35,480 nt of DNA. Source: a virus. The stretch spans positions 1-35,480 of the IMG/VR virus record IMGVR_UViG_3300005580_000011, one strand, 5' to 3'. The translations under genes were made by a program, and so were the position numbers. Shown piece after piece: positions 2,515 through 29,278 of this stretch (the stretch's first letter is position 1; each line of letters opens with the position of its first letter). Under the pieces are notes generated by a model. It had not been told where the DNA came from and ran no database searches. It was given only the letters and a program-made list of their open reading frames with translations.

Positions 2515-3828
2515 ATGATCATAGAAAAGTCACATTGGTCCGCTAATGGAAATGCTATTAATTTATCAATTCCATTTACAAAGGTCAATAGAGAAAAAAG
2601 AACAGTCTCAGGTTTTGCAACATTAGACAACCTGGATCAGACTGGTGACGTCGTTACACAAGAAGCAAGTATGAAAGCATTTGAAGGTTTCAGAGGAAAC
2701 CTAAGAGAAATGCATCAGCCACTTGCAGTTGGCAAGGTTGCTTCATTTAGACCAGAGACTTTTTACGACCCAATAACAAAAGAATTTTACAACGGAGTTT
2801 ACGTTGATGCATACATTTCAAAAGGCGCTCAGGATACATGGGAGAAAGTTTTAGACGGAACTCTCACTGGATTCTCAATTGGCGGAAAGATTCTTGAATC
2901 AGATAACGAAGTAAACAAATCAACAGGAGCATCAGTAAGATTTATTAAAGATTATGCACTAGTTGAACTATCAATCGTTGATTCACCAGCAAACGAACTA
3001 TGTAACATTTTTTCTATTGAAAAAGTAAACGGACAAATGATTTTTAAAGGCATCGCAGCAGATGTTAAAATGGAAAATATTTTTTATTGTGCAGACAGCG
3101 ATTCTGTATTTATGTCAACAGAGTCAGAATACCTGTCTCCAGTTACTGGAAAAAAGACAGAGCTCATTGGATGGGTAGAGTCAAACGACGTAAACAAAGG
3201 AAAAGAAATAGAAAAGATTCTTGATTCACGTAGATCAAGATTGCAAACATTGCCTGAAACACAAAATATAAATACGGCAATTGCAGAAGGAGGAAATGAA
3301 GTGGAAAAGCTTAATATAAACCAAGCAACTCCAGTAGTAGAAGAAGCAGTTGTAGAAACACCTGCAGAAATTATTGAAGAAGTTGCCCCAGTAGAACAAG
3401 ATTCTGCTGAAGTTGTAGCTGAAGTAACTTCTGCCGAAGTTCTGGAAAAATCAGCAGAACTAACAGTTCAGGAGTCACCTGATTTTGTTAAGATGCTAGG
3501 CGACCTTAAGGGTTTCTTCTCAGAGACTTTGGAAAAGGCCTCTGAGGCAAACGCTGCTCAGGTTTCAACAATCAAGGAGACAGTCGAAGCTTTCAGCAAG
3601 AATGTCGATTTGAGAATTTCAGAATTAGCAGAAAAGCACACAGAACTCTCAACAGCAGTTGATTCAATTAAGTCTATAATGGACACAGTTGAAAAAAGAG
3701 TAGACGCAGTAGAATCAGACACTGCAATCAAGAAGTCCTCTGACCTTGGCGGGTCAACAGGAGTAACAATCAAAAAATCAAAATGGAACGGCACTTTCCT
3801 CGGTTCCGTTAGCGAATTAACAAAATAA
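2515..3828 (+). CDS. Capsid maturation protease fused to scaffold domain (XkdF/S78-type)
   Basis: The N-terminal part, about residues 1-170, matches the prohead serine peptidase family (XkdF/S78-type). It shows SGFATLDNLDQTGDVV, the REMHQP segment with a candidate catalytic His67, and TGFSIGG with candidate nucleophile Ser121, followed by the LVELSIVD strand. A middle region of about 90 residues is unassigned. From about residue 263 onward the protein becomes acidic, rich in Glu/Val/Ala and then coiled coil, typical of an internal scaffold that is cleaved or expelled during capsid assembly. The enzyme would trim scaffold and capsid parts in the procapsid. A strong internal ribosome site and in-frame GTG at 3301 suggest the scaffold is also made alone, like lambda C/Nu3. 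Translation starts right at its promoter; the capsid gene follows after 19 nt. Confidence 0.85.
   Translation: MIIEKSHWSANGNAINLSIPFTKVNREKRTVSGFATLDNLDQTGDVVTQEASMKAFEGFRGNLREMHQPLAVGKVASFRPETFYDPITKEFYNGVYVDAYISKGAQDTWEKVLDGTLTGFSIGGKILESDNEVNKSTGASVRFIKDYALVELSIVDSPANELCNIFSIEKVNGQMIFKGIAADVKMENIFYCADSDSVFMSTESEYLSPVTGKKTELIGWVESNDVNKGKEIEKILDSRRSRLQTLPETQNINTAIAEGGNEVEKLNINQATPVVEEAVVETPAEIIEEVAPVEQDSAEVVAEVTSAEVLEKSAELTVQESPDFVKMLGDLKGFFSETLEKASEANAAQVSTIKETVEAFSKNVDLRISELAEKHTELSTAVDSIKSIMDTVEKRVDAVESDTAIKKSSDLGGSTGVTIKKSKWNGTFLGSVSELTK
3287..3303 (+). promoter_or_regulatory. Internal ribosome binding site and in-frame GTG start for scaffold
   Basis: AAGGAGG at 3287-3293 is a perfect anti-16S match, the same heptamer used by the genes at 9059 and 33000. 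It is followed after 7 nt by GTG at 3301, which is codon 263 of the protease gene. The competing ATG at 3296 is out of frame, too close (2 nt) and runs into a stop after seven codons. Confidence 0.6.
3301..3828 (+). CDS. Predicted free scaffolding protein from nested in-frame start
   Basis: Initiation at the GTG would give a 175-residue protein consisting only of the acidic, Glu-rich and coiled-coil scaffold region (first residues MEKLNINQATP). The last residues, after a helical stretch resembling a coiled coil (SEANAAQVSTIKETVEAFS to DTVEKRVDAVES), are basic (KKSKWNG), as in scaffolds that contact the capsid shell through a basic tail. Having both a protease-scaffold fusion and an excess of free scaffold is known from lambda (C/Nu3) and related phages. 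Here the evidence is the perfectly placed ribosome site at the domain boundary; production of the short form is inference. Confidence 0.55.
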   Translation: MEKLNINQATPVVEEAVVETPAEIIEEVAPVEQDSAEVVAEVTSAEVLEKSAELTVQESPDFVKMLGDLKGFFSETLEKASEANAAQVSTIKETVEAFSKNVDLRISELAEKHTELSTAVDSIKSIMDTVEKRVDAVESDTAIKKSSDLGGSTGVTIKKSKWNGTFLGSVSELTK

Positions 3829-3847: not shown

Positions 3848-4897
3848 ATGAGTAATGAACTATTAGCAAAAGCAGCTGAAGTAGGCACAACACTAACAGG
3901 TGGAATGACTGGCTCAGCAAACCCTACCGACGGAATTCACGTAGGTTCCGAGGGTAAGGGAGGCTTGCTCAATCCTGAGCAATCCGCAAGATTCCTTGAT
4001 TACATGTTCGATGCAACAGTAATCGGTAAGGTAGCACGTACAGTTCGAATGAGAGCTGACACTACAGAGATTGATCGTATCGGCGTCGGAGAAAAGCTTA
4101 TGAAGCTTGCATCTGAAGCAGAGAACACTGGCTCAAATGCAGCCGTACAGTTCTCAAAGATTTCTCTCACAACAAAGAAACTTCGCCTAGATTGGGAGCT
4201 TTCAACTGAGTCTCTAGAAGACAACATTGAAGGTGCAGATCTAGAAGATCACATTGCAAGACTCATGGCAACACAAGCTGGTAACGACCTTGAGGACGTA
4301 GTCCTTAACGGTAACACAGCTCTAACTGGAGATAACCTTTATAAGGCATTCGACGGTATTGTCAAGATTGCAAAGACAAATGGTCGTGTAGTAGCTGGAG
4401 CGGGCGCAGCAGTGTCTCGTGACATCTTCAACAAGGCTCTAAAGGCAATGCCACGTAAGTACAAGCAACGTCGTCCAGACCTACGCTTCCTTGCAGGCTC
4501 AAACCTTATACAAGATTACTTGTATTCAAACTCACAGAACATCCAAAACGTTAACCCACAAGATATTGCTTCAAGCATTATCCGTGGAAACGAAGGTGCT
4601 CTAGGTGGTCCAGCAGGATATGTTGCACCATTCGCATTTGGTATTCCAATTGTTGAAGTTCCACTACTTAAGGAAACTCAAGTAGGATCATATGCAACAC
4701 CAACAGGAGAGCACGGAGACGTCCACTTGACATTCCCAAATAACGTTGTTATTGGTATCAAGCGCGATGTAACTGTTTACCGCTTCTTCTGGCCAAAGAA
4801 GGACTCAATCGAATATACAATGTATACTCGCGTGGGTACCCAAATTGAGCAGGCAGACGCATGGGTAGTCGTTAAAGACGTTAAGGTTGCTTCTTAA
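3848..4897 (+). CDS. Major capsid protein (HK97 fold)
   Basis: The 349-residue product is the main shell subunit. Its place after protease/scaffold, its length, and its pattern support an HK97-fold capsid: a short N-arm with GGLLNPEQSARFLDYMFD, a spine-helix region with SLTTKKLRLDWELSTESLEDN and LEDHIARLMATQAGNDLEDVVLNG, and P-domain/A-domain segments ending in TQIEQADAWVVVKD. A ribosome site AAGGTGA lies 7 nt before the ATG. Arginine is written CGN in 14 of 17 cases (8 CGT, 5 CGC, 1 CGA), against mainly AGA in neighbouring genes, as expected for the most abundant virion protein. A strong hairpin terminator follows. Whether the N-terminus is cleaved by the upstream protease cannot be told from sequence alone. 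Confidence 0.93.
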   Translation: MSNELLAKAAEVGTTLTGGMTGSANPTDGIHVGSEGKGGLLNPEQSARFLDYMFDATVIGKVARTVRMRADTTEIDRIGVGEKLMKLASEAENTGSNAAVQFSKISLTTKKLRLDWELSTESLEDNIEGADLEDHIARLMATQAGNDLEDVVLNGNTALTGDNLYKAFDGIVKIAKTNGRVVAGAGAAVSRDIFNKALKAMPRKYKQRRPDLRFLAGSNLIQDYLYSNSQNIQNVNPQDIASSIIRGNEGALGGPAGYVAPFAFGIPIVEVPLLKETQVGSYATPTGEHGDVHLTFPNNVVIGIKRDVTVYRFFWPKKDSIEYTMYTRVGTQIEQADAWVVVKDVKVAS

Positions 4898-9391: not shown

Positions 9392-9726
9392 ATTTAGCCG
9401 CTTTAGAAGGCCAAGTTTTTCTTTTGGGTCACTGGAAGAATTACGAAGAGCTAGAAGAAAATTTATCGATGCCAGAATTGGTTCAAACAATTACAGCGAT
9501 AAACGAAAAAGAGCATAACCAAAGAAAATTCGCAGCATCTCTAAAAGGAATACAATTAGATGATGATGTAGAAGAAGAAAAAAAAGGTTCTACCTTTGAA
9601 GATATCCAAAGAAGAGCACTTGGAATAAATGCATCAGGAGATGATGTTGTTGGATTACAAGGGCCTTTAGCAGCGCAAGCTGGATTTGGAATTGGCGCAG
9701 GGCTAGGATACTCTAGGAGTAATTAG
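9059..9726 (+). CDS. Tail assembly chaperone, frameshifted long form (lambda G-T-like)
   Basis: Ribosomes that slip back one base at 9355 join residues 1-99 of the short chaperone to 123 residues from the overlapping frame (9355-9726), giving about 222 residues. The second part begins with a Gly/Ser linker and contains LAALEGQVFLLGHWKNYEELEENLS, a pattern typical of T-domains that contact the major tail protein. The downstream part has no credible start of its own: the only candidate near 9424 is a TTG without a ribosome site, so the frameshift is the likely expression route. The stop codon shares a base with the tape measure GTG. Confidence 0.82.
9349..9402 (+). promoter_or_regulatory. Programmed -1 frameshift site CCCAAAC with downstream stem
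   Basis: C CCA AAC at 9349-9355 is an ideal X XXY YYZ heptamer in the zero frame (codons CCA at 9350, AAC at 9353). The -1 frame is open from 9340 to the stop at 9724. A 6-bp GC stem (AGCGGC 9361-9366 with GCCGCT 9397-9402) begins 5 nt downstream and could stimulate pausing. Confidence 0.88.
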
Positions 9727-12700
9727 TGGCTGACGAACAAATTGTAACAAGTATAGTCGCCAAAGCCGACTTGTCTAGCCTTGTGTCTGAAGTACACAGG
9801 GCTAGCGCCAGTCTCCAACAATTACAAAGAGAACTTCTTTCATCAAACAGGGCTATAGCTTCTTCTACAAAATTAGCAAATAATTTATTTAGGGATACAT
9901 TAACTGGAAGCGGACAGTACTCCAGCCACTTTGTAAACCTTAATTCTGATGTAGATAAGTTCGGTAAAAACCTAGATGCTGGTAGATTAAAGCTTAGAAA
10001 TTACTTCTCAACATTTAGAGAACACGCTACAACTCAAAAGGGTATGATAAGGGAGCTTGCCAAAGAGCAGGTAATGCTTCAGAATTCAGTACTGCAACCG
10101 CTAGGCAGAAATGCTCAAGGTTTAATGCAGTACAACGTTATGATTCCTAGAGGCCTAGATGCTATAGCAAATAGTGGAAAACTAGCTCGTATGGAAATGC
10201 AGATTATGAATCGTGCATTGTCTGAAGGAGCAGGATCTTTAATTAACTGGGGTAAAAATACTCAGTGGGCTGGTAGACAGCTAACTGTTGGTCTAACCGT
10301 TCCGCTTACAATGTTTGGGGCGGCAGCAGGAAAAGCTTTTAGAGAAGCAGACCAAGAGCTAGTAAGACTTACAAAAGTTTATGGTGGATTGGCTGCAACA
10401 TCTGCAACAGAGTTAAAAAGAGTTAGAGAAGAAGTTGTTGAGACCGCAAAGATGCTGTCTAAAACAATGGGTTCATCTTTTAAAGAAACTATTGCATTAG
10501 GTGCTGATATTGCAGCTACAGGGCAGATGGGTAATCAGCTTTTAGATTCCATTGCTGAAACAACAAGACTATCGATCCTTGGTGAAGTTGATAGGCAAGA
10601 TGCAATGAAAGCAACTCTATCAATTCAAACAGCATTTAAGCAAAATACTAAAGAGCTTACAGAATCAATTAACTTTTTAAACGCAGTTGAAAACCAGACA
10701 TCCACGACACTAGCAGACTTGGTAGAAGCAATTCCAAAAGCTGGCCCAGTAATTCAGCAACTAGGTGGAGATGTTAAAGACTTAGCTCTTTATCTAACTG
10801 CAATGCGAGAGGGTGGAATTAATGCGTCAGAAGGCGCTAACGCATTAAAGTCTGGATTAGCATCACTCATAAACCCAACAAAGCAAACCGTTGGAATGAT
10901 GTCAGATTTTGGCATAGATGTAATGGGTATGGTTGCAAAAAATACTGGAGACACTACTGGCCTTCTTATGGATTTGCAAAAAGCTTTAGATTCACTTGAT
11001 CCATTAAGTAAAGCAAGAGCAATGGAGCAAATGTTTGGAAAGTTCCAGTTTGCAAGAATGAGCGCATTGCTTAATAACTTAGGTAAAGAAGGAAGCCAGA
11101 CGCTTCAAGTTTTGAACTTAATGAAGGCAACTACTGGAGAGTTAGCAGATATTGCTAGCCGAGAATTAAAGATGATTACCGAGTCTGCATCTGGTAAGTA
11201 TAAGAAAGCCATTGAAGGACTTAAAGCAGAACTTGCAGATGTCGGCGAAGAGTTTTTAGGTGTTGCAACTAAACTTATAACTGCAGCAACTAAGATATTA
11301 GATTTCTTTACGGGATTGCCAGCCCCAATTAAAAAAGCTCTTACTTTCCTAGCAGGATTTACTGCATTAGTTGGCCCGCTTATTATGTTAACTGGTGTTC
11401 TTGCAAACTTCTTTGGATATATAACTAAGGGTATTGTTCAGTTAAGAGCATTCTTTATGAAAGCCAGTGGCTGGAAGATGCTTACTCCAGAAATTATTGC
11501 TGCTCAAAAAGCAGCAGAGATGGTTGAAACTGCATTCTATTCAGACGCTGCGGCAGCCCAAGTTCTTCATAATGCATTACAAAAACTTGTTTTAGATTAT
11601 CAAAACCTTCAAGCAGTATCAGCTAAAAATGCTGTACCAGTAAATCCAGGAGTAAGAACAGTTGGCGGTGCACCAGTAATGGTTGCTGGAAGAAGAGTGG
11701 TTGACCCTACTGATCCTTATGTAGGAGATGTTGATACTAGAGCAATGTCTCATATTAATCCTAGAGATCCTAATAACCCTGCAACAATATTTGGTGGGGT
11801 ACCAGGAGCGGTTCCAGTTAATAGAGGAATATCAAGAACTCCTCAAATTTACATGCATGATAGACTTCCAAATGTTGAAGGCCTAACAAGTATAAAAGGA
11901 ATATCTACAGGAATTGTTCCAGGCGAAGCGGCAAAGCACCACGCATTAATGGCAACACTTGGAATGCAAAGCCAACAAGAAATTGCAGCTTTAAAGAAAA
12001 CAATTGCAATGGGCGGAACAGTTAGCAGAGAGCTACTAGACACATTTGACGACATACTTCCTATAACTCAAAGGTTTGCAGATAGTGCAGCAACTCAATC
12101 AGCCGCAATAGTTCAGCAAATGAGAAATGCAGAAATAACAGTCGAACAAGCAAAAGCAAGAATACTTGCACTTAATGCACAAATAGAAGCAGACATGGGA
12201 GCTGCAGTAACTGCATATGCAGCAAGTCGAGGAAGAACAATAGATTTAACAAGAGCTCCAATGATGGATCAACCAGTTGTTGATGCAAATGGACAATTTA
12301 CTCTAAGAGACCTTTATAAGAAAAAAGCAAACCTATCTGTAATGAACGAGTTTGGTAGACTACGTGGAGTCAGAACATTTGGTGCTCCATATAGCATTCA
12401 AACAACAAGACCTCCTAGATTTAATACTGGTGGAGAAATAGAATCATTCGGACCAAATAAAACTACAGTATCTGGTCCATCCTCAATAGATTATGATGAC
12501 AGATTAGGAAATGTTCCTCTAGGAGGTTATGTACTCAACCAAGCCGCCTCAATGGATCCTGCAAATGCTGCCTTGGTTGCAATGGCACCAAGTACTTATT
12601 TAAACGATGGTGGTAATATAACTGCAGCGCTTACTCCACAGGAGACCGTGTTTGGTCCCCAGATTCAAAGAATGCCTGAGCTATATGCAGCAGTAGATGC

Positions 12701-15700
12701 AGCAAATAGTGGATATAATTTCGGCGGACAGATAATGAATGGCATTGCTGGATATGGAAAGAAAACAGCTAACACTCCAGGCAGTAAAATGGATGAAAGA
12801 CTATTTAAAAAGCAGTACAAGGAATATTTAAGATTTATTAATAATCCAAGGTACGCAGATGACATGAGAGTAAGAATGATTATGCTGGATGCAGCAGAAC
12901 TATCTTATACAGCAAAAATGCCTATGGATAAAGCTATACAGACAGCGACATCTAATTTTGATTCTGCTAAAATGCAATCTGGTGGATCTGATGAGCAATT
13001 TGTAAAGCTAAGAATTAAACAAGTACAAGATTTAGAAAAAAGACATCCAGAGCTAAAAGTTAAAAATGCTAAAAATGCTGAAATAAGTAGCAGTAAGGCT
13101 CTTAATTATAATTTAAATAAAGTCAGAGATGCAATGCTACGCGATCAAAGATTTGCTGGAGTGCATGATTTAATATCTGCAGTTTCTCCAACAACATTTA
13201 AAAATAAAAAAGGTATGCCTATTATTCAGGGATTGCATGATAGAGCACATTTTAGACGCAGGGGTTCTCTTGGGTACATGACCAGCGGATATATGGGCCT
13301 AGCGGCAGTTCTTCCTTCTGGAATAAATAACATAATGAGCAGGCTTGAAACTCTTGGACTATCAAGAGATGTTTTAAATTTAAATGCAGAAGATGCAAGA
13401 GAAAATTTTGCATCAGCTTTAAAGAGAACAGGTATGGATAAGTTTGCAACAGTAGATGATCTATATGCAGCAGTCATGGACGATGGTAAGTTTAAGAGCA
13501 AGGCTCAAATAGAGTCTGGTAATGTTATAAGAGCAAATAGAAAACAAAAAAATTCTTGGAGCATGTTCTTAGAGGCTGCAGCAACAAGACAAAAATGGAT
13601 TCCAGGAAGACCACCTAGACTGGTACCAGCAGGCTACAACCTTGGTGGAATGATTCCAGGTGGATCTATATCTAGAGGTAGAAGCTCTTACGGTAATCCT
13701 ATGCCGTTGTTAGCACCAGAAAAGATGCTTAAGATTTTAACAACAGCAAAGACATTAAGCTCAAAAGATTCACTAGGTTCTTTTGCCAGTATGCCAGTAA
13801 CTAAATATGGACACCAAATTGCACCAAGCTCTGGTATGAGTTATCCAGTACCTGGCGTATCTGGAATATATAGAGACCCTACAGGTAAATTAGTTTTTGT
13901 TAAAGGCGTTCCTAATGAATTAACTGCAATACATGAGCCAATCGGAACCACAATTATGAGAAACGCTTTTGGTATAAATTCTCCAGTTCAAACAGCTAGA
14001 ACAATATCTAACCCGCTAGACCCATCAAAGAAAAGCAAGCTGCTGGCCCTAGAATCAGACTTTGACCCGCGTTTTGTCAGCACTGGTGTACTTTGGAAAG
14101 AAGATCAAGTAATTAGACAGCTTGCTGGTTCTCTTCTTATGAACAATAAAGATTTATCTAGGTCAAACGTTTTTGGTAATTTTAATCCAGATGTTGGAAA
14201 TGCTGGAGTATTTGCTAAAGCATCTGGTAATGCAGCCCTCGCCACAGAAATGAATTCTATGGAAAGGCAAGCAATGATTAATTTACTTGCTGTTAAAGGC
14301 GGAGCAAGAAAAGATTTTGCACGTGATACTGCCCCAATAGTTGCTAAGATGAGCCCAAGAAAATATGGTCGACTAATGAAGAAAGCATTGGAAGAGGCTC
14401 GTCCAGAATTAGTAAAAATAATAAATGGGTTACCTAAAGAGCTTAGACAGCCATACGTTGCAATGCTTCAAAGATTAGATGATGGAATAGATGTTGATTG
14501 GAGTAAATATCATTCCATACACGCTAACCCAAGATACCTTAATTCTGGAGGACCAGTCGGTGGCGCAGTTAGACAAGGCAGATATTCCTACGGTAGAAAA
14601 GGAAACCCTGCTACACGAGCAGCGCAGGAAAGAGCCAGAGCAGAACGAGCCGCATCTTACAACACAAGAAGCGGATCTTCATACACAGCATCTGGTAATC
14701 CTCAGATGCAGGTTGCCCGTGTTCCGTATGTTGGAGGCACTGGTGTAGCTGGTAATGTTTACACTGGAGTACCTACCGCATCTATGGCTAGAACAGTTAG
14801 CACAATGAGACTTGCACAATTCCCTTATATGAATATGCCAACAATGCCAATGAACATTCCAGGAGTTGGAAATACAGCAGCAATTTCTGCAGCATTTGCA
14901 GGAATGGGAAACTCGATTAAAAGAGACTCAATCCAGCTAGCAAAAGCTATAGATATAAATGCAAGAGTTATTGCTATGTCAACTAAAGCAAGTGCACAAT
15001 CTATGATAAATACTACAAAGTCTATGTCAACAAAACTAGCGGCTTCCTCAAAGGCCCTGGCCTCAAGCATACAAGCTTTGCCTGGGAGAGCAGCAAATGG
15101 GATTAATAATTTTAGGAATTCAGTAATACAAGAGCAGCAAGCATATGCTGCAAGAAATTATCCTGCAGGAATGGCAGTTCCGACACAAGGATTCTTTGGT
15201 CCAGGATACATAGGCAAATTTAAAGATCATGGCGATGGAGTGCAATCTAGAAAAGTAGGAAGCGTAGGATTTAGAAAAAGAGAATACCTTGTAAATAATG
15301 CTTCTACTGGCGGACATAGTGTTTCAATGACAGCAGCTCAAGCAAAAGCATCTGGTGTTACAATTCCTCCAAGAGGTGGTATGGGAATGGGTGCCCAAAT
15401 GGGCATAGGTATGGCTGGCTCAATGGGCGGAATGGCATTGATGCAAAAAGAAAAAGTACTTGGAATGAGCGGTATGCAAGCTGGTCTGGGATTGATGGTT
15501 GCATCTAGCATACTTCCTTTCCTTCCGTTTGTCAGAATGGCAACTGCAGCAAAAGCAGGTATGGCTGCGGTTTCAAAGGGAATACGTACTATAGCTACAG
15601 GAGCCGCAACGGCAACAAAAGCTGTTGCCTTACTTGGTAGACTTTTAAAAGGATTTGGCCCTATAGGACTTGTAATAGGCACTGTTATTGAAGGTTTAAA

Positions 15701-18700
15701 TCTGTACAAAAAAATTCAAGATTCAAGGCAAGACGCAACCATGGGGCTTGGGCTTACAGCAAGAGCTGCTGAGCAGGCTGGAATAAAATACTTTAATTTA
15801 AATGAAGAAATGAAAAACACAATAGCAAACAGAAAATTGCTTTCAGCGCAAGCTGCAGGAGGACAAAATCTATCGGCAGGTCTTCCTGGACTTGCAATGG
15901 ATGTTAAGCAGATGAAGGTTGCAAAAGAAGAGGGCAAAAAGTTAAAAGAATTAATAGAGTCAATAAACAGATCAGGTGGATTTGACGAAACATTAAGACT
16001 TGTAAATAACCAAAAAGCTCAATTTATAGCAGCAGGGCTAAGTGTTGAAGAGGCTAATAAAAAGATTTATGGGGCATTAGCAAACAGCTCACAGAGCGGA
16101 GATATGTATAAGATACTTTCTAACTCATCATTTGCAGGAATTACAGATCAAGCTACAGCAGCTAATTTTGCAGTAGGAAATCTTCTTAATACTTTAAATA
16201 AGGGCTCCGACTTTGTTGATTTTGGAAGAGAACTAGGTGCAGGATTTGAATCATTAATTAATATATTTGGTCTAACCACAAAAGCTCTTGTAGGTACAGA
16301 AGATGAAGCAGGTAATGTTATTGACGAGTTTGCTGCTTACCAGAAAGTAATAGGAGATTTTAACAGGGTATACGGAGATGCTTTAAACAAGCCAATAGGT
16401 GACGAAGCATATAACGAGCTCTCAAGAAGTAATAGGCTTTTGGGAGAAATTACAACTAGAGCAGACAGCGTACAAGGAATTTTAGCAAAGTGGACCCTGT
16501 TCTCCTCTGGTTTTGCTGCCGATCTATCTAAAGTAGATTCTGCTCTAGCAATTAAATTAGCAGGATTTACACAATCAATAGTTGGTGCAATGGATGACTT
16601 GGGAGATGTTGGTGGAACTGCAACAACATATGGAACAGTTGAAACAGCTCTAACAAAATTGCAAAAAACAATTAATGCTACATCTGCTGCTTCTCAGAGA
16701 GCTGCAAACGCTGCACAAAGAAACGCCCAGGAAGAGCTAAAGGCAATTGCTAAAAAGATAAAGCTTATTGACGATGAAAAAAATAAAAAACTAGAAGCGT
16801 TAAGAGCAACTCAAGAAGCCTCAAATTATGCATTGGAATTGCAAAAGCTACAAATTGAATATTCTGACGCTATTTCTCGTGGAGATATGGCTAGAGCAAA
16901 CCAAGCTAAATTAGACATAGATCAACTAACTTTAAATAGACAATCCGAGCTTGCTCAGAAAGCAGTTGAAGATGCTGCAAATGCAGCAAAAGCACCTTTA
17001 GAGAAAAAAGCTGCAGGAATACAAGAAAAATCAGAAGCAAGAAGCAATGCTGCAGCCCTGGCTGCAGATAGAACAGCTGTTGCCCAAGAAATTAAATTAA
17101 CTATGGAAGGATTTCAATCTAGATACAATCAGCTAACTGTTGAAGGAATCAACGTTGCCTTGTTGCCAGTTGAACTTCAAGCAGCTGCTCAAGCTGAAGT
17201 TGATAGAAAACTAGTTGCACTTATTAAAGAAATACAAAAATCAGGAACTGGTAATTCTCTTTCTGCAAAATACATAAGAGATGGTTTTTCAAAATATTTT
17301 ACAGAAAATGGAAAAGCTATTCAACTTCAAACAACTTCTGTGGCATATAATGGAAGCGTTTTAACAGAAATAAAAACTCTAAGTAAAGGTGTACTAGATC
17401 AATTCAAGGTAGATCAAAAAGCAGTACTTGCACAAGCTGAGGCAATAACAGGCGGATTGAAAATAAAAGAGCTGAACGATAATTTGGTTAAAGCTCTCAC
17501 TAGATATGAACCAAATACTCCGCAGGGCACTAAGTCTGATGAGGTGCTTCGTCCAGGTACAGCTAAAGACTATACCAACACGGCAAAGAGTTTAAATCAA
17601 GCTGGAGCGGCAGCAACAAATCTTGTAAGCGGTGGATCTTACGAGATGTATGTTAGAGAAAATAATGACGGAATGAAGGAATACTTTAAAGTATTTAAAT
17701 ACAAAGGAAAAGCATATGCTGTAAATCCTATGGATGGACAAATATATAAGTATGATTATGCTTCTGGAACAATTACTGATCTTTATAAGTCAGTTGGAGA
17801 TGCAAATAAAAAAGCAGCAGGAGGACACATAACTGGTCCAGGAACTGGAACATCTGATTCTATTCCAGCAATGCTTTCACATGGAGAGTATGTAGTTAAA
17901 GCATCATCTGTTGCAAAATATGGAGTTAGAACACTTGATGCAATTAATAGACAGAAATTCCACAAGGGTGGTCCAGTTCATGATCATTTAGATGATGGCA
18001 CACATCCCCCTTCACAAATTTCATTAGGTGATAATAGATTTGTTTCAGTTTTGCCATCTGCAACTACTTGGAAAAAAGGAATGGACGATTTTTATAGTGT
18101 ACCTAGAAAAAATTATGGCATAGATAAAATTACATCACCAATGGGATCTCTTCAAAGATTCCTTGATATTGCAAAAAGTCAGATTGGATCGGGTCACAAC
18201 TATAGACTACATGACCGTATGACTCCTGATGGAGGATTTGGTTCTCAACTTGGTAGCGCAAAACCTGGTGATGCCAGATTCTATGACAAGGGAATGTCTG
18301 ACACTAATAAATTTAATATTTGGGGAAATAAAAAATTTGGTATAGGTGATGAAACTTCATGGTGGTGTGGACAATTTGTTGCCTGGGTAGCTGAAAAAGC
18401 TGGAGTTAAAATATCAGACAAAATGCATAGTGCATGGCAAGCAACTCAAAAGTATAAAAAGAAAGGTCTTTTTAATGATTTAACTAAAAAGAACAATTAT
18501 AAAAATATTAAAGTTGGAGACTTAGCTTGGTTTGATTATCAATACGATGAAGATGGCCGACCATTCAGAGATGGCGTTCCAGACCATGCAACTATAGTTT
18601 CTAAAGTTGCTAAAGACCATATTGGTGTAATTGGCTGGTATGGTGATGGAGACCAGGTTTCCCAGACATTTTATAAGAAAACACATCCAGGCCTATTTGG

Positions 18701-21700
18701 TTCAGTAAGCCCAGAATTTAAATCATTCCCAACAAAGATGACTCCACTTCCAAATCAATCAGGTGATCCTGAGATGTCATCTATTGATCCAACTACAGTG
18801 GACACATCAACGGCTACAGTTCCTGGTTATGCAGATGGCGGGCCTGTAAATGTTGTACCATCAATACGATCTTATTTAAAGAAAAAGACGTTTGAATCCT
18901 TCCCTAAGAAACCAGGAAAGACCCGCAGCCCAGGAATGGGCATTGATAAGGACCCAATGCGCTATGCAGGCTCTGGCGCTTCTATGGGAGGTATTGGAAG
19001 CGGAGTCTACGGATTTGGTCCACTTATGTTCCACGATGGTGGTCTAGTAGGACACAAGCATACAATGACTGCTGGTATAGAGCCAGACGGAAAACTATCT
19101 ACAATGATTAAAGCCGCAGAGTCAATGCTTGGCTTTAAAGAAGGCAACGAGGATAACGATACATTTTTTGGTAAATGGCAGGACAATAGGGATAAAAATA
19201 TAAACTCTAGGTTTATTGCTTGGTGCGGTGCCTTTATGAACTGGGTAGCAAATGCTGCTGGAGTTCCATTAGATAATATGGTTTATACAGCTGGTGGTGC
19301 TCAAAAGTTTAAAGAAAAGGGTGATTACCATACATCAGATCCACAGGTAGGAGATATGGCATTCTTTAATTATGGATATGATAACAATAAGCCAGGCCAG
19401 GATCGAATACAGCATATAGGTTTAGTCAGAAACATTTTATCAAAATCTTTGCTTGAGACAATTGAAGGAAATACTGCAGAGGTAGAACCACCACTAGTAT
19501 TCCCAAAGGGATATGAAGATAAAGAATATTATGACAAGGATAGACTATTTAGAATTAGAGACGGTGTATTTAAAAGAAAAAGATTATACAACCATCCAGG
19601 AGCATCTATAGTTGGGTTTGGAAGACCTAAGTATAAAGGAGAAACTACACTCGGTGGACTATTAATAAATAGCGGAAAAACTCCAATCATTCCAAATATT
19701 GGAAAAGATCCACGCTCTCTTTACGCAGCAGCTCTTGGATATGCCGATGGCGGTATTGTAAACTCTAATAATTCTCCATTCTTATTTAATGCGGAAACAC
19801 ATAAAAAAAATAATCCTTTAATTAGAGAAAATTATAAATTAGAAGCAGAAGGAAAGTTTCGCCCTTACACACCAGCTATTCTTCCAGATAGAAGCTCAAT
19901 AACTCAAGAAGAAATTAATCAGATTTTAAAGGGAAGGTATCTTCCTGAAACACCAGAAGCAGCTGAATTCTTTGCCTTGCAGTCAATGAATGGTTACAGA
20001 GATCTTGACTTTATTAGAAAGAATTTAAAAAAGGCTACAGCATCCAGATTGCCTAATTTCAATATGTCCCCAGCAATTGGAAGATCAGCAACAGCACTGG
20101 CACGTAACGGAAGATCAGAAGAATTTATTAGACACGTTTTGGGAATCACAGATCCTTCTATTCCAGTTCCAGGGTTTAAAGGAGGCGCAGGATATGCTAA
20201 CGGCGGCTTAGTTAAAGGATATAAAGACGGAGGATTATTTGGCGGGCTGAAAAATAAATTCAGTAGCTACTTCGATCAGTTTGGAAAAAATAAAGAAGAT
20301 GTTGATAAAGCACCTGGTACAAGAAAGTATACTGAAGGAATCCTTAGAGGGATTATGAGAAGCGTTGATCCAACGGGCGGAATGTTGCAGAAGATGCCTG
20401 GACACAAATCAATAGAAAACTTTATCTACTCTGCCGTTGGAAAACCAATTGAAGAAATAATAGCAGGTAGCGGAACCAAGGGAGACTATCTCTGGACAGG
20501 ACTAAACTTTGTTCCAGGAGCAAGTATTTTAAAGGGTGCAAAAGGAGTAAATGCTGGAATAAAGGGAGCAACTCGCATTGGCTTAGCATCTGTTATGGAG
20601 ACGGTAGAGAGGGCAAAAAACACTGTTCCTTTATTAAAATCATTTAATCCATTTAAATATTCTAGTGAGACAGCTTACGCCGCAAAAAGATTTTCTCCTT
20701 TAACTGTTTTTGATAACACTGTATTGTTTCCAAAATTATTAAATAAGTTAATGGACGGAGGCGCATTAGCTAAAACAGAAGCAAAATCTAAATATGCTGA
20801 ATTAATCGAAAAAATGAATTCTGCAGCAAGTACCTGGGAAAGAACTAAAACTGGAAGCTTCCCACTTTCTCCGTTTATACAAGGATCATTACAAGCTGGC
20901 ACAGGCATAATTATAAACACTCCAAGGCAGCTGGCAAAAGCATTTAAGTCTAGAAATCAGAAAGCAACTGGATTTAAAGCCTTGGCAGAAAGAGCTAGCG
21001 CATTTTTAAAGCCACCTGGAGATAACCCAGCTTTTTGGTCAAGGGGATATGGTGTAGCAATGCCATCCCTTGCAAAAACAACAATTGATATAGCTGGAAA
21101 TGCAGTTAGACACCCTCACGCAACTGTTCAAACTTTAATTCACGAGCTTGGACATAGAGATCATGATCTATTTGGAAATCTTTCATCAATATGGAGTGGG
21201 CTTAAAGAATCAGGTAAGGTCCCCGAACCCAACATGGGAAGCATTAAAGAATTTTATGCTGATCTATTTTCATATAGAGGAATAAAATCTTTAAAGGATA
21301 AACTCCCTGGTTTTGATTCATTAAAACACCGTTGGGAAGAAGGCCTGGGGTACAATCTAGGTTCTCCAGCTTCTTCAACCTTAGAGAGTTCTGTATTAGA
21401 TAATTTATACGAACAACTGGAGATCGCTCTACGAAATCCTGGAGTAAGAGGACCCCAAGTAGGGCAAGCGTGGTCGCAAACTCAAGCCGCTCTTATGAGA
21501 ACAGCAGAACCTGTCGTGACTGGGACTCAGTCTTTGATATACGAGGGCATGGCCAAGATATTTGGGGAAAATGGAATAATAAGCGGAGCTGATAATTTTG
21601 AAAATCTAGTAGCATTAGCTACTAAGATGGGTTGGGATGATTTAATTCCAAAGGCTGGATCTGCAAAGAAGCCAAATCTATTAACATCAATTCTTTCTAA

Positions 21701-22115
21701 TATGCCACCTTTAGGACTACCGCTTTCTCCAATAAATGCTTTACAAGATAAAACAGGTATTGATATGGATAAGATAATGAAGGCCCTTGGTAAAATGCTA
21801 ACAGTTACCTCGCCAATAGGAAATAAAGGCCCTGGCAATATGTATAACTTACCTAGATTTGAGGCGGGAATCAATATGGTTCCAGCAGATATGTTAGCAA
21901 TGATTCATAAGAATGAAGCAGTAGTACCAGCACATATGAACCCATTTAATCCAAATGCTACAACATCTGCAATAGCATCAGGATCAGTATATAATATTAA
22001 TGTAGAGCTAAATGGAACTACAGTAACAGCACAAGATGTTGCAACTCAAATACACAGAGAGATGAAATTAAAAGAAATGGCAGCTGGAGTAAATAGAAAA
22101 GTTGGTAGACCATGA
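9726..22115 (+). CDS. Giant tape measure protein with embedded enzyme-like modules
   Basis: At 4129 residues this is a very long tape measure, which sets tail length and is ejected ahead of the DNA. The GTG start has AGGAG at 9715-9719 and overlaps the chaperone stop by one base. Residues about 150-510 resemble the TP901 tape-measure core (INWGKNTQWAGRQLTVGLTVPLTMFG, AFREADQELVRLTKVYGG). Hydrophobic stretches lie near 535-580 and 1889-1990 and a long coiled coil near 2318-2470. Further modules are an unrecognised region (1030-1300), a possible kinase-like domain (1355-1605), two CHAP-type domains (around Cys2881 and Cys3167) and a zincin (HELGH at 3806). Repeated GG signposts separate them. 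The C-terminus (VELNGTTVTAQDVATQIHREM) is typical for the family. The CHAP domains fit local peptidoglycan opening during DNA entry. Confidence 0.95.
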   Translation: MADEQIVTSIVAKADLSSLVSEVHRASASLQQLQRELLSSNRAIASSTKLANNLFRDTLTGSGQYSSHFVNLNSDVDKFGKNLDAGRLKLRNYFSTFREHATTQKGMIRELAKEQVMLQNSVLQPLGRNAQGLMQYNVMIPRGLDAIANSGKLARMEMQIMNRALSEGAGSLINWGKNTQWAGRQLTVGLTVPLTMFGAAAGKAFREADQELVRLTKVYGGLAATSATELKRVREEVVETAKMLSKTMGSSFKETIALGADIAATGQMGNQLLDSIAETTRLSILGEVDRQDAMKATLSIQTAFKQNTKELTESINFLNAVENQTSTTLADLVEAIPKAGPVIQQLGGDVKDLALYLTAMREGGINASEGANALKSGLASLINPTKQTVGMMSDFGIDVMGMVAKNTGDTTGLLMDLQKALDSLDPLSKARAMEQMFGKFQFARMSALLNNLGKEGSQTLQVLNLMKATTGELADIASRELKMITESASGKYKKAIEGLKAELADVGEEFLGVATKLITAATKILDFFTGLPAPIKKALTFLAGFTALVGPLIMLTGVLANFFGYITKGIVQLRAFFMKASGWKMLTPEIIAAQKAAEMVETAFYSDAAAAQVLHNALQKLVLDYQNLQAVSAKNAVPVNPGVRTVGGAPVMVAGRRVVDPTDPYVGDVDTRAMSHINPRDPNNPATIFGGVPGAVPVNRGISRTPQIYMHDRLPNVEGLTSIKGISTGIVPGEAAKHHALMATLGMQSQQEIAALKKTIAMGGTVSRELLDTFDDILPITQRFADSAATQSAAIVQQMRNAEITVEQAKARILALNAQIEADMGAAVTAYAASRGRTIDLTRAPMMDQPVVDANGQFTLRDLYKKKANLSVMNEFGRLRGVRTFGAPYSIQTTRPPRFNTGGEIESFGPNKTTVSGPSSIDYDDRLGNVPLGGYVLNQAASMDPANAALVAMAPSTYLNDGGNITAALTPQETVFGPQIQRMPELYAAVDAANSGYNFGGQIMNGIAGYGKKTANTPGSKMDERLFKKQYKEYLRFINNPRYADDMRVRMIMLDAAELSYTAKMPMDKAIQTATSNFDSAKMQSGGSDEQFVKLRIKQVQDLEKRHPELKVKNAKNAEISSSKALNYNLNKVRDAMLRDQRFAGVHDLISAVSPTTFKNKKGMPIIQGLHDRAHFRRRGSLGYMTSGYMGLAAVLPSGINNIMSRLETLGLSRDVLNLNAEDARENFASALKRTGMDKFATVDDLYAAVMDDGKFKSKAQIESGNVIRANRKQKNSWSMFLEAAATRQKWIPGRPPRLVPAGYNLGGMIPGGSISRGRSSYGNPMPLLAPEKMLKILTTAKTLSSKDSLGSFASMPVTKYGHQIAPSSGMSYPVPGVSGIYRDPTGKLVFVKGVPNELTAIHEPIGTTIMRNAFGINSPVQTARTISNPLDPSKKSKLLALESDFDPRFVSTGVLWKEDQVIRQLAGSLLMNNKDLSRSNVFGNFNPDVGNAGVFAKASGNAALATEMNSMERQAMINLLAVKGGARKDFARDTAPIVAKMSPRKYGRLMKKALEEARPELVKIINGLPKELRQPYVAMLQRLDDGIDVDWSKYHSIHANPRYLNSGGPVGGAVRQGRYSYGRKGNPATRAAQERARAERAASYNTRSGSSYTASGNPQMQVARVPYVGGTGVAGNVYTGVPTASMARTVSTMRLAQFPYMNMPTMPMNIPGVGNTAAISAAFAGMGNSIKRDSIQLAKAIDINARVIAMSTKASAQSMINTTKSMSTKLAASSKALASSIQALPGRAANGINNFRNSVIQEQQAYAARNYPAGMAVPTQGFFGPGYIGKFKDHGDGVQSRKVGSVGFRKREYLVNNASTGGHSVSMTAAQAKASGVTIPPRGGMGMGAQMGIGMAGSMGGMALMQKEKVLGMSGMQAGLGLMVASSILPFLPFVRMATAAKAGMAAVSKGIRTIATGAATATKAVALLGRLLKGFGPIGLVIGTVIEGLNLYKKIQDSRQDATMGLGLTARAAEQAGIKYFNLNEEMKNTIANRKLLSAQAAGGQNLSAGLPGLAMDVKQMKVAKEEGKKLKELIESINRSGGFDETLRLVNNQKAQFIAAGLSVEEANKKIYGALANSSQSGDMYKILSNSSFAGITDQATAANFAVGNLLNTLNKGSDFVDFGRELGAGFESLINIFGLTTKALVGTEDEAGNVIDEFAAYQKVIGDFNRVYGDALNKPIGDEAYNELSRSNRLLGEITTRADSVQGILAKWTLFSSGFAADLSKVDSALAIKLAGFTQSIVGAMDDLGDVGGTATTYGTVETALTKLQKTINATSAASQRAANAAQRNAQEELKAIAKKIKLIDDEKNKKLEALRATQEASNYALELQKLQIEYSDAISRGDMARANQAKLDIDQLTLNRQSELAQKAVEDAANAAKAPLEKKAAGIQEKSEARSNAAALAADRTAVAQEIKLTMEGFQSRYNQLTVEGINVALLPVELQAAAQAEVDRKLVALIKEIQKSGTGNSLSAKYIRDGFSKYFTENGKAIQLQTTSVAYNGSVLTEIKTLSKGVLDQFKVDQKAVLAQAEAITGGLKIKELNDNLVKALTRYEPNTPQGTKSDEVLRPGTAKDYTNTAKSLNQAGAAATNLVSGGSYEMYVRENNDGMKEYFKVFKYKGKAYAVNPMDGQIYKYDYASGTITDLYKSVGDANKKAAGGHITGPGTGTSDSIPAMLSHGEYVVKASSVAKYGVRTLDAINRQKFHKGGPVHDHLDDGTHPPSQISLGDNRFVSVLPSATTWKKGMDDFYSVPRKNYGIDKITSPMGSLQRFLDIAKSQIGSGHNYRLHDRMTPDGGFGSQLGSAKPGDARFYDKGMSDTNKFNIWGNKKFGIGDETSWWCGQFVAWVAEKAGVKISDKMHSAWQATQKYKKKGLFNDLTKKNNYKNIKVGDLAWFDYQYDEDGRPFRDGVPDHATIVSKVAKDHIGVIGWYGDGDQVSQTFYKKTHPGLFGSVSPEFKSFPTKMTPLPNQSGDPEMSSIDPTTVDTSTATVPGYADGGPVNVVPSIRSYLKKKTFESFPKKPGKTRSPGMGIDKDPMRYAGSGASMGGIGSGVYGFGPLMFHDGGLVGHKHTMTAGIEPDGKLSTMIKAAESMLGFKEGNEDNDTFFGKWQDNRDKNINSRFIAWCGAFMNWVANAAGVPLDNMVYTAGGAQKFKEKGDYHTSDPQVGDMAFFNYGYDNNKPGQDRIQHIGLVRNILSKSLLETIEGNTAEVEPPLVFPKGYEDKEYYDKDRLFRIRDGVFKRKRLYNHPGASIVGFGRPKYKGETTLGGLLINSGKTPIIPNIGKDPRSLYAAALGYADGGIVNSNNSPFLFNAETHKKNNPLIRENYKLEAEGKFRPYTPAILPDRSSITQEEINQILKGRYLPETPEAAEFFALQSMNGYRDLDFIRKNLKKATASRLPNFNMSPAIGRSATALARNGRSEEFIRHVLGITDPSIPVPGFKGGAGYANGGLVKGYKDGGLFGGLKNKFSSYFDQFGKNKEDVDKAPGTRKYTEGILRGIMRSVDPTGGMLQKMPGHKSIENFIYSAVGKPIEEIIAGSGTKGDYLWTGLNFVPGASILKGAKGVNAGIKGATRIGLASVMETVERAKNTVPLLKSFNPFKYSSETAYAAKRFSPLTVFDNTVLFPKLLNKLMDGGALAKTEAKSKYAELIEKMNSAASTWERTKTGSFPLSPFIQGSLQAGTGIIINTPRQLAKAFKSRNQKATGFKALAERASAFLKPPGDNPAFWSRGYGVAMPSLAKTTIDIAGNAVRHPHATVQTLIHELGHRDHDLFGNLSSIWSGLKESGKVPEPNMGSIKEFYADLFSYRGIKSLKDKLPGFDSLKHRWEEGLGYNLGSPASSTLESSVLDNLYEQLEIALRNPGVRGPQVGQAWSQTQAALMRTAEPVVTGTQSLIYEGMAKIFGENGIISGADNFENLVALATKMGWDDLIPKAGSAKKPNLLTSILSNMPPLGLPLSPINALQDKTGIDMDKIMKALGKMLTVTSPIGNKGPGNMYNLPRFEAGINMVPADMLAMIHKNEAVVPAHMNPFNPNATTSAIASGSVYNINVELNGTTVTAQDVATQIHREMKLKEMAAGVNRKVGRP
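10173..11255 (+). other. Tape measure core domain (TP901-like), residues about 150-510
   Basis: Helical region with the family-typical pattern of an amphipathic start (SLINWGKNTQWAGRQLTVG), a Gly/Ala hinge, then AFREADQELVRLTKVYGG and KETIALGADIAATGQMG. It is followed by a hydrophobic pair of helices at about residues 535-580 (ALTFLAGFTALVGPLIMLTG), where tape measures usually carry their membrane-active part. Confidence 0.75.
12813..13625 (+). other. Unrecognised module in tape measure, residues about 1030-1300
   Basis: A Lys/Arg/Asp-rich globular region flanked by GG signposts at 1000 and 1307. It has KKQYKEYLRFINNPRYADDMRVRM, a long helix, then SAVSPTTFKNKKGMP, GLHDRAHFRRRGSLGYMT and LDVLNLNAEDAR-like helical segments. 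Its composition differs from the surrounding Ala/Gly-rich tape measure helices. I do not recognise the fold. Confidence 0.5.
13788..14540 (+). other. Possible kinase-fold (HipA-like) module in tape measure, residues about 1355-1605
   Basis: GIYRDPTGKLVFVKG resembles a kinase glycine/beta hairpin with a strand lysine (Lys1393), followed by a helix glutamate (Glu1404). Further on, MNNKDLSRSN gives Asp1476-x4-Asn1481, the spacing of the catalytic loop of protein kinases and HipA, and Asp1489 could be the second metal ligand. The region lies between GG signposts at 1307 and 1608. The spacing to the last Asp is shorter than usual and the assignment is tentative. Confidence 0.4.
15390..17135 (+). 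other. Hydrophobic region followed by long coiled coil in tape measure
   Basis: Residues about 1889-1990 are Gly/Ala/Met-rich and strongly hydrophobic (QAGLGLMVASSILPFLPFV and LLKGFGPIGLVIGTVIEGL), compatible with membrane insertion or pore formation. Residues about 2318-2470 form a charged Ala/Lys/Glu-rich coiled coil, the ruler-like part. Confidence 0.6.
18123..18725 (+). other. CHAP/NlpC-P60-type cysteine peptidase module 1 in tape measure
   Basis: Residues about 2800-3000. The helix FLDIAKSQIG leads into WWCGQFVAWVAEKAGV with candidate nucleophile Cys2881, then KVGDLAWFDYQ and DHATIVSKV with His2954, and GVIGWYGDGD. Order and spacing (Cys-x72-His) fit CHAP amidase/endopeptidases. The likely role is cutting cell-wall peptidoglycan at the injection site. 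Confidence 0.78.
19068..19625 (+). other. CHAP-type cysteine peptidase module 2 in tape measure
   Basis: Residues about 3115-3300. IKAAESMLGFKEG, then FIAWCGAFMNWVANAAGVP with Cys3167, QVGDMAFFNYGYD, and RIQHIGLVRNI with His3230 (Cys-x62-His), followed by TIEGNT, the strand typical of CHAP domains. It is clearly diverged from module 1 at the sequence level, so it is either an old duplication or a separate acquisition. Confidence 0.78.
21003..21335 (+). other. Zincin metallopeptidase-like module in tape measure
   Basis: TVQTLIHELGHRDHDLFG carries a full HExxH motif (His3806, Glu3807, His3810) in a helix context, and IKEFYADLFSYR provides a candidate third ligand Glu3842, 31 residues further on, the gluzincin arrangement. 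The preceding strand RHPHATVQ and the long polar surroundings fit a small zincin of the kind found in phage polyvalent proteins. Substrate unknown. Confidence 0.65.
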
Positions 22116-27205: not shown

Positions 27206-29278
27206 ATGGCTGGCAAATATGAAGATTTAGGAATTAGCCAAACCAAAGATGGTGAGTACTCTGACGTAATTATTTCAGGTTTAGATCTTAGTACAGAGTA
27301 TGAACTTCAAGTTGCTTGGGTATATTCAGATAAAACTTTAGGAACTAGTGAGTACTCAGACCCATACACATTTGTAACAACTGGAGAATCTCCATTAAAT
27401 AAGCCAAGATTTTTACGATCAGATTTAACTACGCAGCTAAATGCACTTATTGTAAATTGGTCAGGATTAGATTATCTAGGAGCTTCCTACCCATCAAACT
27501 TTGCAAGAGTAGATATATATGTAAAAGGCGGAACATTTGGAAGTGAGTATGTAATTGCAGGAAGTTTTGAAAAAGCTGGAAAGAAAACACTTATTGCTCA
27601 ATCTGGAACATATTTTGTAAAGTTAAGAGCAGTAAGTAATCGTGGAACAACATCAGATTTTAGTGATGAGTGGTCATCAAATACATCTGACCCAGCAGAA
27701 ATTGTTGAGCCACCTACACTTCCAATCGGACTAACAGTTTCAAGCACAGCATTTGGAATTTCTGTAAATTGGGGTGGAGCATATCAAGCAGATGATCCAT
27801 TTTCTGGATTTAAAACAATTGAGGTTTATGCAACAACAAATGCTGCATTGGGAGCCAGCACTACTACAGCATTTGCAAGCTCTGCATTAGTAGCAAATTT
27901 AACAGTAACCCAATCTTTAAATAGACAAAATGTTGGAATTGATAATCTTAAGCAGGCACTTGGATTAGCTACATCAGAATTAGTATATGCCGCTAATATT
28001 TATTTTTATTACATAGCGTATAATAAAAATAATGAGCCTTACAAGGTCGGCGGAGTTTCAACATACACACGAATTAGCGCAACTCCTATTTCTCCAAGCA
28101 AAGCAAATTTTATTGATTTAGCAAATGGTGTAATATCAATTGAAAACCTAGTTGCTGGAAATGGAAAATTTACATCATGGCTTAGAGCTGGATCAGATAC
28201 AGGTGGTTCACGAATAGAGTTAAATGGTGGTAGCAGTTTTGCAGATGGAGCAACTGGAAGATCGGTACTAGATGGATTTACAGTTTACAGCCCTGGTAAT
28301 ACCCCAATATTTAGAGCAAGCACAACGGGAGGAACGGTAACTTTTGGAGGTTATGCACCTTCAGATATAGCAGATATACAATCAAAGGTTACAACGAAGA
28401 CACAGGTTTTTAGGCAGGCAACAGTTCCAACATCTGTAGCCGTTGGAGACCTGTGGATAAATACAGCAGACAGTACTATTGGAAGAAATACAATTTATAT
28501 TGCCACTTCAATTGGGGCAAATTCAATAACAGCCACTGGCTGGGTTGTTGCAAAAGATTTAGATATCTCAAAAGCATTACTTCAATCTGGAGGGTTTGAT
28601 TCTAATGGAAATATAATTAGGGCTATTGAAATTCCAATGAAAAATGGAGTAGCAGAAGGTGCAATATATTCTGTAAAAAGTTCATATGATTCGACACTAC
28701 CTGGTTGGTTTTTAGGATGGAGCGGAACTTCAGCAAACAGCGTTCCAGTTATTGCCATAGGAAATGAAAACTATAGTCTCAAATGGACTGGAACACAGCT
28801 ACAGATAAAAGGTGATATAACCGCTTCAAATATAACTGGTTCAACTATAACTGGTACAACAATAACAACTACTGATACAGGATTTAACAGAATCAGATTA
28901 AATAGCTCTAATAGCTCATTAGAATTTTTAAATTATTTAGATGCTGTAACTGGAGCTATTTATAATTTTAACAGCGGAGAGGTAATAATACAGTCAGGAA
29001 ATAAAACAGCCCTAGGCTATCCTTCATCTTCAGGTTATATATCTGTAAGCAGCACAAGTGTTACAATTGGAAGAACAAATGCACAAGGAGTTAATATTGG
29101 TGGGCTTACAGTTAATAGTACAAATGCAGATTTTAGTGGAGTAGCCGTTAAAAATAGTTCTAATACTAGCATAGGAACAGGAAATTATTACATGAGAAAT
29201 ATTGGAATGGGAGCGGATGCAAAAACATCTTCACAAACAGATGGATATCTTGGAGATATCTGGATACAGTATTCATAG
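27206..29278 (+). CDS. Tail fibre with fibronectin type III domains
   Basis: The 690-residue protein starts inside what looks like the second half of an FnIII domain (SDVIISGLDLSTEYELQVAWVYSDKTLGTSEYSDPY). It continues with another FnIII-like domain (residues about 65-165, RFLRSDLTTQLNALIVNWSGLDY to YFVKLRAVSNRGTTSDFSDEW) and a third beta domain beginning PPTLPIGLTVSSTAFGISVNW. From about residue 305 it resembles the C-terminal part of J-like host-specificity fibres: FIDLANGVISIENLVAG, then IQSKVTTKTQVFRQATVPTSV, a Thr/Ile repeat at GDITASNITGSTITGTTITTT, and a final trimer-like tip. Start: ATG 27206 with GGAAG upstream. It likely recognises the host surface. The missing first half of the opening FnIII domain is odd. 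Confidence 0.75.
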   Translation: MAGKYEDLGISQTKDGEYSDVIISGLDLSTEYELQVAWVYSDKTLGTSEYSDPYTFVTTGESPLNKPRFLRSDLTTQLNALIVNWSGLDYLGASYPSNFARVDIYVKGGTFGSEYVIAGSFEKAGKKTLIAQSGTYFVKLRAVSNRGTTSDFSDEWSSNTSDPAEIVEPPTLPIGLTVSSTAFGISVNWGGAYQADDPFSGFKTIEVYATTNAALGASTTTAFASSALVANLTVTQSLNRQNVGIDNLKQALGLATSELVYAANIYFYYIAYNKNNEPYKVGGVSTYTRISATPISPSKANFIDLANGVISIENLVAGNGKFTSWLRAGSDTGGSRIELNGGSSFADGATGRSVLDGFTVYSPGNTPIFRASTTGGTVTFGGYAPSDIADIQSKVTTKTQVFRQATVPTSVAVGDLWINTADSTIGRNTIYIATSIGANSITATGWVVAKDLDISKALLQSGGFDSNGNIIRAIEIPMKNGVAEGAIYSVKSSYDSTLPGWFLGWSGTSANSVPVIAIGNENYSLKWTGTQLQIKGDITASNITGSTITGTTITTTDTGFNRIRLNSSNSSLEFLNYLDAVTGAIYNFNSGEVIIQSGNKTALGYPSSSGYISVSSTSVTIGRTNAQGVNIGGLTVNSTNADFSGVAVKNSSNTSIGTGNYYMRNIGMGADAKTSSQTDGYLGDIWIQYS

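Follow-up and report, generated by a model that had tools for sequence, protein, structure and literature searches.

Phage tape measure proteins (TMPs) exit the tail and arrive at the inner membrane, and in lambda a probe on the cytoplasmic side labels the TMP in the course of injection (PMC13190303). In mycobacteriophage TM4, a muralytic motif embedded in the TMP aids infection of stationary cells and contributes to the length of the tail, deletion of its 114 residues corresponding to about 20 nm (PMC1796659). Injection systems have TMP-like proteins, too, in which the effector domain is exchangeable (PMC11126660, PMC13277306). Here, we describe a TMP encoded by the IMG/VR virus record IMGVR_UViG_3300005580_000011, the 35,480 bases of which constitute the stretch of DNA analysed (hereafter ‘the window’). 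Its open reading frame (ORF) starts with GTG and specifies 4129 residues (9726..22115, on the + strand, as are all features given below; from the ORF list, Pfam, and PHROG). Between a conserved core and a short conserved C-terminal end, this protein has a row of modules that are gained, lost, or exchanged among relatives, preferentially at short glycine-rich sequences, which we call signposts. We put the probability at roughly two in three that the TMP has a second role, that of carrying exchangeable enzyme modules that are delivered during infection.

Several described systems share part of this design. The TMPs of mycobacteriophages (TM4 motif 3, Rpf-like motif; PMC1796659) have an enzyme domain inside a siphophage TMP that aids infection, as those of the window may, and that is present in some phages and absent from others; each of them, however, has one small muralytic motif, whereas the window's TMP has several modules, non-muralytic candidates (the kinase-like one and others) among them, and recurring borders. 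Polyvalent proteins, which occur in phages and conjugative elements, bring together disparate, shuffled enzymatic domains in one polypeptide, as the window's TMP may do, with ADP-ribosyltransferase (ART), peptidase, and GNAT themes, but their description makes no mention of TMPs (PMC5512222), which would be the carrier here. The MuF-VIP2 ADP-ribosyltransferase fusions of actinophages (PMC7302621) join a structural virion protein to a host-directed enzyme, as is proposed for the window's TMP; their carrier is a head protein and has one toxin-like domain, whereas the window has several modules lined up in a tail protein. Finally, Tme and Sle1 (PMC11126660, PMC13277306) combine a TMP-like carrier with an exchangeable effector domain that has been shown to be loaded and functional; they belong to bacterial injection systems and have a C-terminal effector, whereas the window's phage protein has several internal slots and retains its conserved C-terminal end after the cargo. 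Unlike a headless contractile injection system of the Tme/Sle1 type, the window has head and portal genes. No report of a multi-slot phage TMP with such cargo (kinase, ART, polymorphic toxin, or polyvalent protein) was found in the open-access papers searched, and the comparison suggests that the protein is best described as a TMP with polyvalent-protein-like cargo, of a multi-slot kind not found described before.

The product of the 4129-residue ORF is a tape measure protein, as both its profile matches and its late-gene position fit. The N-terminal part matches Pfam PhageMin_Tail (E = 1e-24; residues 240-438), the ORF matches the PHROG TMP profile (E = 2e-117), and portal, maturation protease, and head protein genes lie upstream and a minor tail protein gene downstream. 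The core covers residues 1-1010 (9726..12755; Pfam, PHROG, and relatives), with a membrane-type helix at residues 541-559, and the C-terminal end covers residues 4042-4129 (21849..22112; relatives). Scanning IMG/VR with TMP residues 149-880 yielded 69 loci of uncultivated phages, mostly 73-97% identical and some of them fragments, from which 31 distinct long TMPs (designated by L numbers) were compared with the window's own (‘W’), i.e. 32 proteins in all. Across relatives, identity over residues 1-1010 is 66-97% in most cases, and most TMPs also keep the last ~87 residues (4042-4129); between these two regions, identity drops and returns block by block, and slot contents are replaced between conserved flanks. 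Thus, slot 1 (residues 1010-1300) is swapped for unrelated sequence in about ten relatives, with identity resuming at the signpost at residue 1307, and the length of slot 3 (residues 2752-4041) varies between 21 and more than 1400 residues, the slot being nearly empty in L021, L023, L024, L051, and L043 and exceeding 1000 residues in others. A homologue of the window's second CHAP domain directly follows the core signpost in L027 and L029 and follows the signpost at residue 3105 in the window; this module has therefore moved position.

Between sister TMPs, modules are added, removed, or replaced precisely at the GG. W and L002 agree through LGYAD/GG, after which W has 151 additional residues before both continue with GGLV; L032 and L053 diverge at PLMFANGG(P/L)V, and L173 and L189 at FH(K/A)GGPVGHRHGRN. 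In the 32-protein alignment, 114 of 346 well-supported breakpoints fell within 10 residues of a signpost (31 ± 5 with shifted signposts); in the cargo regions of close pairs, 38 of 103 distinct breakpoints fell within 12 residues (random 15.6 ± 3.6, maximum 28 in 1000) and 57 within 20 residues (random 24.4 ± 4.4), counts that are not fully independent owing to the shared history of the genomes. The signposts are preferred, though not exclusive, module borders. Domain shuffling at signposts, which an initial annotation of this DNA had proposed, appears well supported within the cargo region by slot replacement, breakpoint enrichment, and the sister pairs, with the qualification that many breakpoints lie elsewhere.

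The same annotation gave the signposts the form (Y/F)-x-(D/N/S/K)-G-G. Every GG position that it listed is correct (residues 902, 962, 1000, 1307, 1608, 2699, 2748, 3038, 3105, 3342, 3493, and 3502), but the motif as written fits only six of these twelve (starting at residues 2745, 3035, 3102, 3339, 3490, and 3499). Six strict sites are well in excess of expectation (0.64 ± 0.79; maximum 5 in 2000 shuffles), and the 40 plain GG in the TMP are unremarkable (35 ± 5 expected); because the strict sites are too few to explain the pattern, we used relatives instead of motif statistics alone. The six looser signposts are FNTGG, YLNDGG, YNFGG, YNLGG, YLNSGG, and KAAGG, and the repeated element is, on sequence grounds, better described as [YFHLMA]-x(1,3)-G-G-x-[VILMF].

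Located by motif scan together with AlphaFold, the first signposts are FNTGG (GG at 902; 12420..12434), in a predicted disordered linker; YLNDGG (GG at 962; 12597..12614), in a low-confidence stretch; YNFGG (GG at 1000; 12714..12728; also from relatives), at the left border of slot 1; YNLGG (GG at 1307; 13635..13649; also from breakpoints), between slot 1 and the kinase-like module; and YLNSGG (GG at 1608; 14535..14552), at the right border of the latter. The GG at 2699 is joined to a GTGTSDSIPAMLSxGEYVV unit (17811..17909; motif scan and cultured phages), which the initial annotation had rightly taken for a common TMP motif and which is shared with cultured actinophage TMPs. Relatives and breakpoints place FHKGGPVHDH (GG at 2748; 17958..17987) at the left border of the variable slot 3. 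Further motif-scan hits are YADGGPV (GG at 3038; 18828..18848); FHDGGLVGHKH (GG at 3105; 19029..19061; also from relatives), at the border of the second CHAP domain; and, both also seen in the sister pair, YADGGIV (GG at 3342; 19740..19760), the left border of the 151-residue module missing in L002, and the paired YANGGLV and YKDGGLF (GG at 3493 and 3502; 20193..20240). The AlphaFold model of residues 880-1640 (43 sequences) has two ordered blocks, at about residues 1024-1287 (helical) and 1329-1604, and the five signposts checked (902, 962, 1000, 1307, and 1608) all lie outside both, in low-confidence linkers with predicted local distance difference test (pLDDT) values of about 24-40, rather than inside folded domains.

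The first of these blocks is the helical domain of slot 1 (residues 1024-1287, allele A; 12795..13586; relatives and AlphaFold). The second, slot 2 (residues 1329-1604; 13710..14537; alignment, AlphaFold, and Foldseek), is nearly constant, being aligned in all long TMPs compared except that of L043, which is without the kinase and differs in sequence between the slot 1 and slot 2 signposts. A kinase-like module had been claimed for residues 1355-1605, and fold match and motifs agree: Foldseek against the PDB returned Helicobacter pylori CtkA first (probability 1.00, E = 4e-3), the listed hits were mostly kinases, and HipA was among the matches (probability 0.66). Residues 1329-1604 are accordingly predicted to have a protein kinase-like fold of the CtkA/HipA type, although sequence similarity to these kinases is undetectable. 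The kinase motifs K, E, KDLSxSN, and DVG are conserved, and in 12 homologues, down to 44% identity, K, E, the D and N of KDLxxSN, and the D of DV are invariant; these are the putative catalytic-type Lys, Glu, and Asp/Asn and the putative metal-binding Asp. Against viral predictions, the top matches (probability 1.00) were a portal protein fusion and ADP-ribosyltransferase-named proteins of 1200-1340 residues, one from Mycobacterium phage Onyinye, a further likeness to the MuF-VIP2 fusions. Sequence searches of Pfam, NCBIfam, and the PDB yielded nothing reliable for the kinase, slot 1, protease-like, or ART-like modules (PDB sequence matches such as uteroglobin peptides were taken as chance), and no GTDB genome was found to have a relative of the kinase when searched with its profile. 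Nor was a match to the slot 1 and kinase region found at E ≤ 0.01 among 50,697 cultured phage records, so this region would have been missed there. A homologous kinase does occur in a different TMP family, L132-L144, whose core is 35-37% identical and whose kinase, at about residues 794-1070, is 42-46% identical to that of the window; in L138, a PAMLSPGEAVIP-type half unit lies upstream of it.

Slot 3 of the window begins with a CHAP-type domain at about residues 2800-3030 (18123..18815), with Cys in WWCGQF and His in DHATIV, followed by a second CHAP domain at about residues 3115-3310 (19068..19655; best Pfam stretch 3165-3249), both from Pfam and alignment. The expectation of two CHAP modules held, Pfam CHAP scoring 42.9 bits against a cut-off of 26 with two passing stretches. 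Next come a module without assigned function (residues 3345-3490; 19758..20195; from relatives and from the ratio of nonsynonymous to synonymous substitution rates, dN/dS), present in L003 and not in L002, and a protease-like module (residues 3510-4040; 20253..21845; motifs) with an LNFVPG segment, HELGH at 3806-3810, and a downstream EFYADLF. The initial annotation had placed a zincin after the last signpost; HELGH and the downstream Glu speak for it, and HELGH with E(F/T)YADLF is retained in W and L002, but no match was found in Pfam or NCBIfam, hence the name protease-like. In W, family-profile support belongs to CHAP, the kinase having a fold match and the HExxH module a motif. A search for additional relatives of the protease-like module and of the 3342-3493 module returned only contigs that were already known. 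In pairs with L002 or L003, the dN/dS of the window's modules is 0.09-0.42, rough values with some dS near or above 0.9, which is consistent with purifying selection.

The 20 slot-3 regions searched with Pfam contain CHAP in six and LysM in four, with weak matches to GNAT in four (best E = 0.0019), SprT-like in two (0.0048), and M13 in two (0.029). By motif only, HExxH occurs in the modules of W, L002, L006, L011, L017, L036, and L053 and near-identical ones, a second-kinase motif, H(D/G)GN...DFG, in L003, L009, L016, L152, L167, and twice in L178, and ART-like stretches in L009, L004, L052, L032, and L138. The TMP fragment of L178 combines its two HGGN...DFG motifs with a homologue of the window's kinase module, and in the C-terminal region of L138 an ART-like stretch (GPGLYSATSP...) precedes a TMP-type C-terminus. 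Many non-CHAP slot-3 modules (W, L011, L016, L017, L027, and L036) have a hydrophobic Gly/Pro segment, LNFVPGxxxLKG or LGVLPGxG, some 50-150 residues past the signpost; it is possibly membrane-related, and CHAP modules are without it.

Read as a carrier of enzyme modules, the protein would work as follows. The usual TMP tasks of ruler, chaperone binding, and membrane channel would fall to the core (residues 1-1010), to a variable middle in which membrane-type and helical segments occur, and to the C-terminal end, and the cargo positions would lie between core and C-terminal end, separated by the flexible glycine signposts. These would be protein-level hinges, i.e. unfolded linkers at which modules insert, leave, or swap with their neighbours undisturbed, and their flexibility would let modules thread or fold separately. 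On infection, the TMP would exit the tail and span the envelope, the modules would pass into the host, and some may reach the cytoplasm. CHAP and LysM modules would most likely open the cell wall; kinase-, protease-, GNAT-, and ART-like modules, if catalytically active, would most likely have host proteins as their targets, whether at the membrane or in the cytoplasm, either against defence or for takeover. We infer this division of labour, CHAP on the wall and other modules on host proteins, by analogy with the TMPs of lambda and TM4 and the TMP-like proteins of injection systems; it is plausible that several effectors are delivered through the tail.

Several results weigh against this interpretation. 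In the cargo regions, 65 of the 103 breakpoints lie more than 12 residues from any signpost, and in residues 1650-2600 none of 64 is near one. The kinase was found in relatives without signposts at its borders, there being no adjoining GG signpost in L132-L144. The Foldseek kinase match has an E value of only 4e-3 and a TM-score of 0.41 on the target, the low TM-scores arising because the whole two-block model was the query. The protease-like, second-kinase, and ART-like assignments, made from short motifs, found no confirmation in Pfam or in sequence searches of the PDB, and the AlphaFold model of residues 2745-3940 (8 sequences) had a mean pLDDT of 31 and was not used. A misaligned alignment row, that of L053, was left out before folding.

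It is possible, although we tend to doubt it, that the signposts are ordinary low-complexity TMP linkers with no role of their own and that insertion is tolerated wherever the chain is unfolded. SIPAMLSxGEYVV and GG motifs are indeed present in cultured actinophage TMPs, cargo-free TMPs such as that of L024 keep three GG motifs, and the breakpoints away from signposts are many. Breakpoints at signposts are nevertheless enriched two- to four-fold, and a stronger signpost form, F/Y-H-x-G-G-P/L-V-G-H-K/R-H, stands before cargo modules. Scanning DNA with a degenerate form of HxGGPVGH[KR]H gave 55 stretches, and at 48 loci a long ORF contains the motif in frame; at least 20 copies have mutually unrelated flanks and so keep the motif at the amino-acid level in unrelated contexts. 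Its VGH[KR]H extension was not found in the cargo-free TMP tails examined (such as that of L024), which keep plain GG motifs. The GG linkers therefore seem to be older landing sites, the histidine form accompanying cargo.

We consider it unlikely that the modules serve entry only, with CHAP, LysM, and protease-like modules digesting the wall or surface proteins, the kinase-like and unassigned domains being inert spacers or tail parts, and nothing acting in the host. The enzyme motifs known from TMPs are muralytic ones that assist in infecting stationary cells (PMC1796659), and CHAP and LysM are the best-supported families here; yet the invariance of the kinase-type K, E, D, N, and D down to 44% identity would be difficult to account for in a spacer, slot 3 of relatives also houses GNAT-like and second kinase-like modules, and the top viral fold matches are the portal and ADP-ribosyltransferase-named proteins.

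An explanation at the DNA level, in which the signposts are short repeats for module exchange by homologous recombination, is improbable. Breakpoints do cluster at signposts, some exactly at GG codons, but codon identity among 20 independent copies of the histidine-rich signpost is near the codon-usage expectation at most positions (Gly 0.33-0.43 vs 0.35, first His 0.48 vs 0.57), with an excess only at Val (0.56 vs 0.40) and one His (0.81 vs 0.57). Because codons vary about as codon usage predicts, the conserved unit is mainly protein, and a nucleotide recombination anchor was rejected as sole explanation. More improbable still is cleavage at the signposts to free modules in the virion or host, with the HExxH module as protease: double glycines, their unfolded location, a protease-like module in the same chain, and the autoprocessing proposed for polyvalent proteins (PMC5512222) would suit it, but the same signposts occur in relatives without HExxH cargo, e.g. 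L004, L009, and L016.

Elsewhere in the TMP, the middle region (residues 1650-2690; 14673-17795) is fast-changing, with many breakpoints and none near signposts, and carries two membrane-type stretches at residues 1921-1939 and 1966-1984. The GC (guanine plus cytosine) fraction of the modules is 0.355-0.39 compared with 0.399 in the TMP core, and no clear foreign signal was found in their base composition. Downstream of the minor tail protein gene lie two long ORFs without PHROG match (27206-29278 and 29287-32820) and, close to the end of the tail region, a metallo-phosphoesterase gene (33910-34710; PHROG E = 9e-52).

If the TMP is indeed a carrier of exchangeable enzyme modules, the tail ruler would offer, in addition to MuF fusions and other head proteins, another route by which enzymes enter the cell at the onset of infection. 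The relatives, which extend from an empty slot to more than 1400 cargo residues on nearly the same core, would provide a natural series for testing. Questions that thereby become testable are whether cargo counts in tail length, how a narrow tube would let folded enzymes through, and what hosts or defences may drive the exchange of modules.

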